Below, in pieces: positions 5,229 through 19,572 of a stretch of 64,000 nucleotides of DNA. Each line of letters opens with the position of its first letter. Position 1 is the first letter of the stretch. Origin of the DNA: a virus; IMG/VR virus record IMGVR_UViG_3300028569_000019, positions 1 through 64,000 of that record; one strand, written 5' to 3'. Under the pieces are notes generated by a model. That model made no database searches. It was not told where the DNA came from and saw only the letters and a program-made list of their open reading frames with translations. A program made the position numbers and the translations under genes.

Positions 5229-5300
5229 TCCCCTGTAGTGTCAAAGTAGCACGGCTGGTTGTTACCCAGTTAGGTGAAGGTGCGAGTCCTTCTGGGGGAG
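5229..5300 (+). tRNA. tRNA-Asn (anticodon GTT), altered D/T loops, CCA not encoded
   Basis: Acceptor TCCCCTG/TGGGGGA, discriminator G, followed by CTT and not CCA. Anticodon stem GCTGG/CCAGT, loop TTGTTAC. T-stem GAAGG/CCTTC, loop TGCGAGT (T54, G55 C56). The D-loop TCAAAGTAG reads A18 G19. U1-A72 and G73 agree with bacterial tRNA-Asn. Confidence 0.8.
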
Positions 5301-5340
5301 CTTTCGTCAAAATAAAATACATTTTGACAGTTCACATCCA

Positions 5341-5351: not shown

Positions 5352-6047
5352 ATGGATGTGAACCAAGATTTCAAATATACAATATATAAAACTACCAATA
5401 AAATTAACAACAAAGTTTATATTGGAATGCATAAAACAAAAAATCCATATGACAGTTATATGGGTTCTGGTAAATTATTCAAAAGAGCAGTAGGAAAATA
5501 TGGTGAAGAAAACTTTGTAAAAGAAGTTTTATTTATATTTGATACCGCTGAAGAAATGTTTGCGAAAGAAAAAGAAATAGTAAATCAATTATTTATTGAA
5601 TCAGATAATACATACAATATTATGGAAGGTGGATGTGGAGGTTATTCATATATAAATGAATCTGGTAAAAATTTGTATGGTCAGAACGGTGATATTAATC
5701 ACGGTGGAAAAAATTTATTAACTGGTAATAAAATAAAAGAATTTTTAATTGAAAAAGGATTATTTGAAGAATGGAAACAGAAAGTATCAACATCTTTAAA
5801 AGAAAAATGGAAACGAGATGGTTTTCATTGGACTGGTAGAAAACATAAAGATGAATCGAAAAAGAAAATGAGCGCAGATAGAAAAGGCAAATATACAGGT
5901 ATAGATAATTCAAATTATGGAAATTGTTGGGTTTATTCAGATTTAGAATCTAAGAATAAAACCATTAAAAAACAAGAATTAAATGATTACATAAATAATG
6001 GATGGAAACCGGGTATAAAAATGAAATATCATAAGAAAATTTCATAA
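5352..6047 (+). CDS. GIY-YIG homing endonuclease
   Basis: 231 residues. The N-terminal GIY-YIG nuclease motif is YTIYKTTNKINNKVYIGMH (residues 9-27), followed by a catalytic-core-like stretch ending in YNIMEGG. A NUMOD3-like DNA-binding segment, GRKHKDESKKKMS, lies around residues 164-176. Such phage proteins (T4 Seg family and relatives) are free-standing homing endonucleases that cut cognate DNA lacking the gene. It sits between two tRNA genes, with its own late-type box 3 nt before the ATG. The gene is very A-rich, unlike the structural genes, in keeping with recent mobility. Confidence 0.9.
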   Translation: MDVNQDFKYTIYKTTNKINNKVYIGMHKTKNPYDSYMGSGKLFKRAVGKYGEENFVKEVLFIFDTAEEMFAKEKEIVNQLFIESDNTYNIMEGGCGGYSYINESGKNLYGQNGDINHGGKNLLTGNKIKEFLIEKGLFEEWKQKVSTSLKEKWKRDGFHWTGRKHKDESKKKMSADRKGKYTGIDNSNYGNCWVYSDLESKNKTIKKQELNDYINNGWKPGIKMKYHKKIS

Positions 6048-6065: not shown

Positions 6066-6188
6066 TCCAGAGTAGCTCAATGGTAGAGCATGCGGCTGTG
6101 GGCCATAAAGTATTATTTAATAGAGAGTGCAAATCTCATAAGGCCAAAGTTAACCGCAGGGTTGGGGGTTCGAAACCCTCCTCTGGAG
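6066..6188 (+). tRNA. tRNA-Asn (or His) interrupted by 51 nt in the anticodon loop
   Basis: Exon 1 has acceptor TCCAGAG, D-arm GCTC/GAGC with GG, and anticodon stem TGCGG followed by CTGT. Exon 2 supplies TAA, CCGCA, T-arm GGGGG/CCCTC with loop TTCGAAA, and CTCTGGA plus discriminator G, with no CCA. Removing 6100-6150 gives loop CTGTTAA (GTT, Asn). Removing 6101-6151 gives CTGTGAA (GTG, His). U1-A72 and G73, and the sister tRNA-Asn at 5229, favour Asn. The insert is bounded by GGCC at both ends, which can pair, and holds a GAGA/TCTC hairpin. It is far too short for a group I intron. Confidence 0.65.
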
Positions 6189-6329
6189 CTCTTTCAATAG
6201 TTTTATATGATGTATGATATATGCTGATTAAGGGTTAGGCAGTTGATCAAATTGCAATAGTATGAACATAAAGTGCCTTAAGAAATTTAAATAATTTCAT
6301 TGTTCATTATACATTATATAATTTTTCAA

Positions 6330-6430
6330 TAGGGAGTAGTAATTGATAAAAAACAAGCTAGATAGATGAGCAAGTTCGAAATTGCTTGAACGGTGTGAAA
6401 TCCTAGTGTAAGTTTAGATGAACTGCCCTA
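6330..6430 (+). other. tRNA-like hairpins in a gene-free stretch
   Basis: The 250 bases between two tRNAs (6189-6439) hold no ORF. TAGGGAGT (from 6330) can pair with ACTGCCCTA (6422-6430). Inside, AGCAA/TTGCT (6369-6373, 6382-6386) encloses the 8-nt loop GTTCGAAA. There is no recognisable T-arm or CCA. Probably a decayed tRNA or an unassigned small RNA. Confidence 0.3.
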
Positions 6431-6439
6431 CTAATTTTC

Positions 6440-6526
6440 GGGAGTATCGCATAGCAGCAATTGCTGGACACTGTAAATGTCCCGGCCTAACGGCCTTCGT
6501 AGGTGCAAGTCCTACTGCTCCCACCA
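6440..6526 (+). tRNA. tRNA-Tyr (anticodon GTA), altered D/T loops
   Basis: Acceptor GGGAGTA/TGCTCCC, discriminator A, CCA encoded. Anticodon stem GGACA/TGTCC, loop CTGTAAA. Long variable arm GGCC-TAAC-GGCC, normal for bacterial Tyr. T-loop TGCAAGT (G55), D-loop with A18 G19 (CAGC). 87 nt. Confidence 0.85.
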
Positions 6527-6531
6527 TTTTT

Positions 6532-6617
6532 GGGGTATTATACTGATAAAGACGCAGAACGGTCTGTAAAACCGTTGCCTTCGGGCTGGGTAGGAGCATT
6601 ACCTACATACCCCACCA
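6532..6617 (+). tRNA. Second tRNA-Tyr (anticodon GTA), altered D/T loops
   Basis: Acceptor GGGGTAT/ATACCCC, discriminator A, CCA. Anticodon stem ACGGT/ACCGT, loop CTGTAAA. Variable arm GCC-TTCG-GGC. T-stem GTAGG/CCTAC with loop AGCATTA (A54, G55 C56, T58). D-loop ATAAAGACG with A18 G19; the D-stem is only 3 bp. Why two Tyr genes are present is unclear. Confidence 0.75.
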
Positions 6618-6624
6618 TTTCAAT

Positions 6625-6698
6625 TGACCGTTAATTCAATAGCAGAATAGACGACTGATAATCGTCCTACGCCGGAGCGTAACCGGCACGGTCAACCA
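6625..6698 (+). tRNA. tRNA-Ile (anticodon GAT), altered D/T loops
   Basis: Acceptor TGACCGT/ACGGTCA, discriminator A, CCA. D-stem ATTC/GAAT with loop AATAGCA (A18 G19). Anticodon stem GACGA/TCGTC, loop CTGATAA. T-stem GCCGG/CCGGC with loop AGCGTAA (A54, G55 C56, T58). 74 nt, all stems perfect. Confidence 0.85.
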
Positions 6699-6700
6699 AT

Positions 6701-6770
6701 TTTGTTAGTAAGTGTTGGGTTCAATCCCCTTTACTCTGTGATCACTGGTGAGAACATAACTACTAACAAA
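6701..6770 (+). other. Hairpin-bounded tRNA-like element
   Basis: TTTGTTAGTA (6701-6710) pairs perfectly with TACTAACAAA (6761-6770). Inside is a T-arm-like GGG-TTCAATC-CCC right after the 5' strand and a GTGATCAC palindrome. No anticodon arm or CCA can be placed. It could be a decayed tRNA or a small RNA. Confidence 0.35.
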
Positions 6771-6776
6771 TTCAAC

Positions 6777-6856
6777 GGATCAGTATTGGCCACGCCTTCT
6801 AAGCGATAGGTGCATAATTGGATAAGTGTTGGGTTCGACTCCCACCTGATCCACCA
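6777..6856 (+). tRNA. tRNA-Arg-like gene (TCT) with disordered arms
   Basis: Perfect acceptor GGATCAG/CTGATCC, discriminator A, CCA, and a T-arm with canonical loop TTCGACT. The anticodon-like loop CTTCTAA on a CGC/GCG stem would read AGA. The usual D-arm is missing before it, and a D-loop-like AATTGGATA follows it. The fold is therefore unusual, and I am unsure whether it is functional. Confidence 0.5.
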
Positions 6857-6896
6857 AATATTTAAAAATAAATGAAACTATTTGCTCTATACAACA

Positions 6897-11550: not shown

Positions 11551-11871
11551 ATGAATGAACTAAGTAAAATTGATATGGCGAATTTAGTCTTTAGTAATGA
11601 CAAAAAGGCTAAAATCAAAGATGTATTGTGTTCCAAGTATGGCGCAACTGACGTACAATATAGAGATCTAACGTATGGTATTTGTATTGATGTTGTTGGC
11701 ACTGATAGTTTTAGATTTGTAAAGAACGCAATACTAAAAACATTGGATGTGCATGAAGAAACTTTGTCCGTCTTGGGTGAAAGTAAGAGAAGTATGAAAG
11801 CTTCTTATGTTTATTTACCCGAAAAGGATAAAGTTTTGAACAAACGTCTCAAGAAGCTGAAAACTGCTTGA
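11551..11871 (+). CDS. Early protein of unknown function
   Basis: 106 residues (start MNELSKIDMANLVF). Mixed alpha/beta composition, basic C-terminus (KDKVLNKRLKKLKTA), no signal peptide, membrane segment or motif that I recognise. It is the only protein gene in the window directly behind a perfect TTGACA/TATAAT promoter, and it is isolated between two hairpins that could terminate transcription. It is therefore probably made early, possibly as a host-takeover factor (inference from position and promoter only). Confidence 0.65.
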   Translation: MNELSKIDMANLVFSNDKKAKIKDVLCSKYGATDVQYRDLTYGICIDVVGTDSFRFVKNAILKTLDVHEETLSVLGESKRSMKASYVYLPEKDKVLNKRLKKLKTA

Positions 11872-15090: not shown

Positions 15091-15168
15091 GGCTATGTAG
15101 ACCAACTGGAAGGAGTCGTCTGTCTTAGAAACAGAATAGTATTGGTTCAAATCCAATCATAGCTACCA
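15091..15168 (+). tRNA. tRNA-Leu (anticodon TAG) copy 1, short variable loop
   Basis: Acceptor GGCTATG/CATAGCT (G1-U72), discriminator A, CCA. Anticodon stem TCTGT/ACAGA, loop CTTAGAA, so codon CUA. The variable loop is only ATAGT, five bases, whereas bacterial tRNA-Leu normally has a long arm. T-stem ATTGG/CCAAT, loop TTCAAAT. First of three tandem copies. Confidence 0.8.
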
Positions 15169-15177
15169 TTTTGTAAT

Positions 15178-15255
15178 GGCTACGTAGCCCAACTGGAAGG
15201 AGTCGTCTGTCTTAGAAACAGAATAGTATTGGTTCAAATCCAATCATAGCTACCA
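15178..15255 (+). tRNA. tRNA-Leu (anticodon TAG) copy 2, hybrid of its neighbours
   Basis: Same anticodon arm as copies 1 and 3. The 5' acceptor strand GGCTACG matches copy 3, but the 3' strand CATAGCT matches copy 1, which leaves one C-A mismatch. It looks like a recombinant between the flanking copies. Confidence 0.75.
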
Positions 15256-15264
15256 TTTTGTAAT

Positions 15265-15342
15265 GGCTACGTAGCCCAACTGGAAGGAGGCGTCTGTCTT
15301 AGAAACAGAATAGTACTGGTTCGAATCCAGTCGTAGCTACCA
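15265..15342 (+). tRNA. tRNA-Leu (anticodon TAG) copy 3
   Basis: Acceptor GGCTACG/CGTAGCT, compensatory to copy 1, discriminator A, CCA. Anticodon loop CTTAGAA; five-base variable loop; T-stem ACTGG/CCAGT, loop TTCGAAT. Confidence 0.8.
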
Positions 15343-19186: not shown

Positions 19187-19572
19187 GGGGATGTGTAGAT
19201 TCGACATAGATAAATATCTATTGTTAGGCACGTAGAGGATAATAGTTGGCCTCTTTAAAAGTTCTATTGAAAATTAACTGCTGAAGATAACGTAGTTAGC
19301 TATGACTTCTCTTATGATGACGTTGTAGCCCTTGCAGCCTAAGTTGTTGCACATTCAATACAATGAAGTCTGATAGTTGTGTTGAGTGTAAATTATTGGA
19401 CTGGACCAAATATTTGATTTGCGTAAATGGTCGAGATATTAGTAAATCTTAAGGGTAATATTTTTAGATATTTTTCATTATTACTTCCCAACAATTTAAA
19501 ATATATAAACGTGTAGTCTGGCAGTAATAATTTTTTATGGACGCGGGGTGCGACTCCCCGCCATCTCCACCA
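19187..19572 (+). ncRNA. ssrA: tmRNA (one-piece, phage-encoded)
   Basis: The 5' end GGGGATG pairs with CATCTCC before ACCA at the 3' end. The D-like region GTAGATTCGAC corresponds to TGGATTCGAC in bacterial tmRNA, and the 3' part GGACGCGGGG...CCCCGCCATCTCC matches the tRNA-like half. The tag frame starts at GCT 19280 and ends TAA 19340-19342. It codes AEDNVVSYDFSYDDVVALAA, 20 residues, ending in the classical ALAA degradation signal. The T-loop is TGCGACT (G55) and the D-loop has AG in place of GG, the same swap as in the phage tRNAs. tmRNA rescues stalled ribosomes with SmpB; no SmpB gene is in this window. Confidence 0.93.
19280..19342 (+). CDS. tmRNA tag reading frame
   Basis: Resume codon GCT after ATTAACT, then 20 codons (AEDNVVSYDFSYDDVVALAA) and TAA. 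It is twice as long as the usual 10-residue proteobacterial tag, but the ALAA end is kept, so ClpXP-type proteases should recognise it. Confidence 0.85.
   Translation, partial: AEDNVVSYDFSYDDVVALAA

Follow-up and report, generated by a model that had tools for sequence, protein, structure and literature searches.

A tRNA-Asn gene in the analyzed window (64,000 nucleotides of viral DNA, the 64-kb part of a 96.8-kb IMG/VR fragment) is interrupted in its anticodon loop by a 51-nt insert that is itself tRNA-like, folding as a truncated tRNA with an acceptor-like helix, a T-stem, a canonical T-loop, and a 4-nt tail. The insert is neither a random sequence nor a group I intron. The recurrence of similar inserts in many unrelated phages suggests an as yet undescribed form of intron removal by tRNA-trimming enzymes. 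Both the tRNA-likeness and the wide spread among phages were missed by the original prediction, which had described two well-paired tRNA halves separated within the anticodon, and had proposed either a new removal mechanism or a deliberately inactive tRNA.

The interruption itself and the good pairing of the halves were confirmed. With introns allowed, ARAGORN called a tRNA-Asn(gtt) with a 51-nt anticodon-loop insert at 6066-6189, and the Rfam tRNA model matched 6066-6188 (52.5 bits, E = 2e-8). The outer stems are fully paired (acceptor 7/7, anticodon 5/5, T 5/5). When the mature loop is taken as CUGUUAA, the insert lies between U35 and U36 (CUGU/GGGCC...AAAGU/UAA), and its junctions are flush, leaving the 7-nt loop CTGTTAA (e5+d = 11). 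A repeated T lets the insert slide by one base (CUG/U...G/UUAA), and the insertion site is fixed at 35/36 by relatives that lack this repeated T (L190, L209, L213, L228, and L231). The anticodon had been read as GTT (Asn) or, shifted by one base, GTG (His), and only the first of these stands. Excision leaves a cloverleaf with a GUU anticodon, U33, A37, and G73 (ARAGORN and Rfam, with G73 taken from the sequence), and G is the base at position 73 in bacterial tRNA-Asn. A His identity was rejected because G-1 is missing, base 73 is G, and the relatives fix the register.

The intact tRNA-Asn that had been reported upstream is present, and a Seg-like homing endonuclease gene lies between the two tRNA-Asn genes (Table 1). 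This gene is probably not part of the intron, since some relatives lack it and have the two tRNAs next to each other; a bypassing or homing element linked to the neighboring endonuclease gene was likewise rejected as a general cause, the tRNA-Asn genes adjoining in several relatives such as L003 and L008. Other RNA features of the window include a tRNA-Tyr at 6440-6526 accompanied by several degenerate CCA-ended tRNA-like sequences that neither ARAGORN nor Rfam calls (6340-6860), three tandem near-identical tRNA-Leu(UAG) genes (15091-15342), and a phage-encoded tmRNA (19187-19572, Rfam 101.6 bits). The fragment encodes a T4-like portal gp20 and the major capsid protein gp23. The portal gene contains an intein, which carries an HNH endonuclease domain (L252:9390-12344). 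By capsid, the closest isolates are Microcystis phage Mel-JY01 and Flavobacterium phage immuto, at about 50% identity, and a major capsid protein search for a more complete relative returned fragments only.

Table 1. Features of the two tRNA-Asn genes and of the insert (positions in the window).
Feature	Position	Strand	Basis or remark
Second tRNA-Asn(GUU), uninterrupted	5229..5301	+	Also matched by Rfam
Seg-like homing endonuclease gene	5352..6047	+	blastn to annotated phage homing endonucleases
5' exon of tRNA-Asn(GUU): acceptor 5' strand, D-arm, anticodon-stem 5' strand, loop CUGU (32-35)	6066..6099	+	ARAGORN, Rfam
Putative tRNA-like intron, 51 nt (junctions CUGU/G and U/UAA)	6100..6150	+	ARAGORN; near-invariant in 13 further contigs
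Inner acceptor-like 5' strand GGGCCAU (positions 1-7)	6100..6106	+	5/7 pairs with 6140-6146; GGCC/GGCC in MFE fold
16-nt linker replacing D and anticodon arms	6107..6122	+	
Inner T-arm GAGAG[UGCAAAU]CUCAU	6123..6139	+	
Inner acceptor-like 3' strand AAGGCCA (positions 66-72)	6140..6146	+	
Inner tail N73-N76 (AAGU)	6147..6150	+	Other class members: ACCA, UCCA or AAAG
3' exon of tRNA-Asn: UAA (36-38), anticodon-stem 3' strand, variable loop, T-arm, acceptor 3' strand, G73	6151..6188	+	ARAGORN, Rfam

The inner acceptor-like helix of the window insert has two mismatches, G1-A72, which is common to several relatives, and A6-A67; in the inner T-arm, the G49-U65 pair of the window is G49-C65 in most relatives. 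With five of the seven acceptor pairs, four of the five T-stem pairs, and the T-loop UGCAAAU, the insert has the architecture of the phage-wide class described below, more weakly than most members. None of 300,000 shuffles of the insert passed the combined test of inner T-arm, helix, and register, a test that was devised after the structure had been seen. The pairing of the GGCC ends that had been noted earlier is real and belongs to a larger tRNA-like structure.

Exact searches, along the lines that had been suggested for related phage tRNAs, recovered the same insert in 13 other IMG/VR viral contigs and a variant of it in L174. Across these relatives the insert is near-invariant, varying at a few positions only: a T or C at insert position 65 keeps the G49-U/C65 pair, and in L174 two inner G-C pairs are changed to G-U. 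The outer tRNA is more variable in a compensatory manner. In L014 and L174, the anticodon stem is changed from TGCGG/CCGCA to TTCGG/CCGAA and the outer T-stem is recoded from GGGGG/CCCTC to GAAGG/CCTTC; in L003 and L007, an outer acceptor pair is changed from A-T to T-G. Because the outer tRNA changes compensatorily around a fixed insert, the gene is probably not dead. The window phage and several relatives also retain the intact second tRNA-Asn.

Two patterns were used to search for the wider class, one requiring an additional T-arm between the D-arm and T-arm of a tRNA and the other specific for Asn. The acceptor helix as such was absent from the search patterns, and the Asn-specific pattern fixed just two bases of the 5' strand. 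The first generic pattern also returned tandem tRNAs and a different class of insert, which were set aside, and because the intron mode of ARAGORN yields false positives, inserts were kept only if they passed the minihelix test. The searches yielded many unrelated phage tRNAs whose inserts measure 43-76 nt and are alike in architecture but not in sequence. In the shared layout, the seven bases next to the 5' junction pair with the seven that follow a 5-bp T-stem with its canonical T-loop. Some inserts have D and anticodon arms, and in the others a short linker takes their place; either one base (N73) or four (N73-N76, sometimes ACCA or UCCA) stand between the inner helix and the 3' exon. Excising the inner element, from its first base to N73 or N76, almost always restores a 7-nt loop and a sensible anticodon (Asn GUU, Lys UUU, Thr UGU, Val UAC, Ile UAU, or Arg UCU). 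All of these anticodons except Val have U36 and read codons starting with A.

Among 23 non-redundant inserts, 140 of 161 acceptor pairs are formed at the register defined by the exons, and in 20,000 permutations, with 5' strands swapped between inserts, the mean was 84.8 pairs and the maximum 104. Shifting the 5' strand by 1-3 nt reduces the mean number of pairs per insert from 6.1 to 3.3-4.2. Pairs 2-71 to 5-68 are each represented by several base-pair types in these inserts. The best tail length is uniquely 4 nt in 14 of the 23 and uniquely 1 nt in 4, and ACCA or UCCA is located exactly at the 3' exon in L032, L034, L060, L125, L189, and L217. Three inserts hold a full tRNA: a complete tRNA-Gly(UCC) is nested in a tRNA-Asn (L125), a complete tRNA-Phe in a tRNA-Arg(UCU) (L058), and the anticodon loop of a tRNA-Ile(UAU) holds a complete tRNA(CTA) resembling an amber suppressor (L465, complement 11693-11769). 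In the introns of the Lak type and in L219, L227, and L079, a 5' leader precedes the minihelix.

When 84,980 bacterial and archaeal species genomes were searched in a similar way, restricted by anticodon, 30 pattern matches were obtained, nearly all of them tandem-tRNA artefacts, with L342 as the sole credible nested-like case. Among named phages, a whole interrupted gene matching the concatenated query was found only in Atu_ph07. The literature searched, a body with most subscription journals and bioRxiv outside it, apparently contained no description of the general class, its exact register, the mechanism proposed here, or the presence of such inserts in T4-like and jumbo phages, one of them cultured.

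The different class of short phage tRNA insert sits either at 33/34 or within the anticodon-stem 5' strand (L105, L106, L151, L159, L156, L147, L116, L135, L136, L047, and L083). Its motifs resemble CCUGU...ACAGCAA or GUUACUU, and at five of the loci (L105, L106, L151, L047, and L083) Rfam returned tRNA only. At L069, L118, L119, L082, and L093, a 5' tRNA half (acceptor, D-arm, and the start of an insert of this kind) is directly followed by a complete tRNA; these are possibly split tRNA genes.

An interrupted gene may be the only one with its anticodon. In 10 other phage records scanned for duplicate anticodons (Atu_ph07, G002, G004, G007, G014, G017, G018, G021, G023, and G025), no uninterrupted tRNA shares its anticodon with an interrupted one; G002, G004, and G007 belong to the window's own clade. 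The published tRNA set of Atu_ph07, a cultured Agrobacterium phage, covers every amino acid but Asn and Thr (PMC6102473). The record of this phage contains an unannotated interrupted tRNA-Asn and an interrupted tRNA-Lys(UUU). A further tRNA in it, whose insert is a 33-nt hairpin, is a probable interrupted Thr gene: it reads Thr(UGU), or Ile(UAU) with a one-base shift. RnlA is annotated in this phage.

From the comparative evidence we infer excision of the insert, the enzymes involved, and ligation of the halves. The insert is probably a genuine intron, from which cuts of the RNase P and RNase Z type would free the minihelix and a phage Rnl1-type ligase would join the tRNA halves. The recognition signal would be the miniature tRNA, i.e., the acceptor-like helix and T-arm, standing in the outer anticodon loop. 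Host RNase P would cut at the first insert base, between U35 and G1; acceptor/T-stem minihelices are substrates of bacterial RNase P (PMC11221534). A 3'-tRNA-processing endonuclease, most simply RNase Z/BN, would cut after N73 or N76, immediately before U36; RNase Z of E. coli and T. maritima is able to cut after an encoded CCA (PMC7479834). The ends made by both cuts should be 3'-OH and 5'-phosphate; the outer cloverleaf would keep them together for sealing by a T4 Rnl1-type RNA ligase from the phage, with a normal tRNA-Asn(GUU) as the end product. Such ends in an anticodon loop are a substrate of T4 Rnl1, and ligases of this type normally reseal cut anticodon loops. A canonical RNase Z cut of the window insert is uncertain because of its five of seven acceptor pairs, the G1-A72 mismatch, and a tail of AAGU instead of CCA. 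RNase P alone cannot set the 5' junction of the Lak-type introns and of L219, L227, and L079, because of their 5' leader.

Rnl1 (PF09511) was found in 9 of 11 insert-bearing records larger than 150 kb vs. 4 of 15 comparators (P = 0.015, Fisher's exact test, on a small sample and with kinship ignored), and Rnl2-type matches are common in both groups. The near-absence of the inserts from bacterial chromosomes fits a ligase supplied by the phage. An RNA ligase elsewhere in the genome, which had been proposed as a check, was looked for and not found in the window's record, a fragment with mainly structural genes, nor in its clade, which is represented by fragments no longer than 134 kb. The intact tRNA-Asn that the window phage also has counts against the proposed mechanism. 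Between removal and deliberate inactivity, the comparative evidence favors removal, because the cloverleaf is kept compensatorily, the boundaries are exact, and the interrupted gene is the sole one for its anticodon in the 10 other records sampled.

The intron could also be real and be released by a dedicated phage endonuclease that recognizes the minihelix and cuts both junctions before a ligase joins the halves. Non-CCA tails (AAAG, AAGU, and AGAU) and the frequent mismatches at 1-72 would be unusual for RNase Z, the 5' leader of the Lak type means that one enzyme set must handle two layouts, and near-absence from bacterial chromosomes suggests a phage factor. However, several inserts end exactly in CCA and some hold complete tRNAs, which host enzymes would process anyway, and the ligase by itself can explain the restriction to phages; we regard a dedicated endonuclease as rather unlikely. 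A gene that is never spliced, whether a pseudogene or a nested, decaying tRNA gene inserted by recombination, is improbable. The full tRNAs nested in L058, L125, and G018 make tRNA-gene insertion plausible as an origin, and an intact tRNA-Asn is retained by several relatives as well as the window, but decay does not agree with an outer tRNA that changes compensatorily while the insert is retained, with an exact 7-nt loop after excision, or with the lack, in the other sampled records, of any intact gene sharing the anticodon.

Phage tRNAs are targets of host defences, and the insert hides the anticodon and displays a second T-loop, so the unspliced molecule might itself be functional, e.g., as a decoy that occupies anticodon nucleases or tRNA-processing enzymes of the host. 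Such a role, which we consider very unlikely, does not predict the exact exon register, the sensible restored anticodons, or the missing intact genes for the same anticodon elsewhere. Least credible is a miniature or remnant self-splicing group I intron. Bacterial group I tRNA introns are also located in the anticodon loop, but the conserved structure here is an acceptor helix and a T-arm, and the insert, which at 51 nt had rightly been judged too short for self-splicing, has no group I or group II match among the Rfam covariance models at the gathering threshold in the window. A bulge-helix-bulge intron was rejected because the geometry is wrong, the GGCC/GGCC helix being flanked by 5 and 8 unpaired loop bases.

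To our knowledge, bacteria are thought to remove tRNA introns by self-splicing only. We place at about even the chance that the inserts constitute a separate, essentially phage-confined intron class with its own tRNA-like signal, with host RNase P and RNase Z doing the excision and a phage RNA ligase sealing the gap. If so, phages would possess a splicing route built from ordinary tRNA-trimming enzymes and a repair ligase, and protein-dependent tRNA splicing would occur in bacteria. Nested genes of the L058, L125, and G018 type would then yield two working tRNAs each, the "enigmatic" introns of megaphages would be explained, and phage Rnl1 would gain a second role. Phage tRNA sets would also be under-annotated, since standard bacterial tRNA finders miss interrupted genes, e.g., in Atu_ph07.

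The phenomenon has already been seen in one phage group. Lak megaphages have tRNAs with conserved "enigmatic" introns, one of which, in Thr(TGT), possibly encodes a tRNA (Devoto et al. 2019; PMC6784885); the main text of that paper gives no removal mechanism. In our scan of Lak-A1, three interrupted tRNAs have inserts with a 7-bp acceptor and T-arm behind a hairpin-bearing leader of about 28-34 nt. Lak introns resemble the window class in being short and highly conserved with an inner acceptor and T-arm, and differ in being longer (79-114 nt) and in their 5' hairpin leader, whereas the window insert is flush and starts directly with the helix. The position in the anticodon loop is shared with group I introns of bacterial and phage tRNA genes, but the window insert is far shorter and has neither a catalytic core nor an Rfam match. 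The bulge-helix-bulge tRNA introns of archaea and eukaryotes (EndA/TSEN plus ligase) are also short, located in the anticodon loop, and removed by cutting and ligation. Their signal is a 4-bp helix between two 3-nt bulges and their ends are a 2',3'-cyclic phosphate and a 5'-OH, whereas the window insert has a tRNA minihelix as its signal and predicted 3'-OH and 5'-phosphate ends. In T4 repair by Rnl1 and Pnkp, a ligase of the type found in most large insert-bearing relatives seals a cut anticodon loop. That system repairs host damage to an uninterrupted tRNA, whereas here the ligase would complete intron removal and Pnkp would be unneeded.
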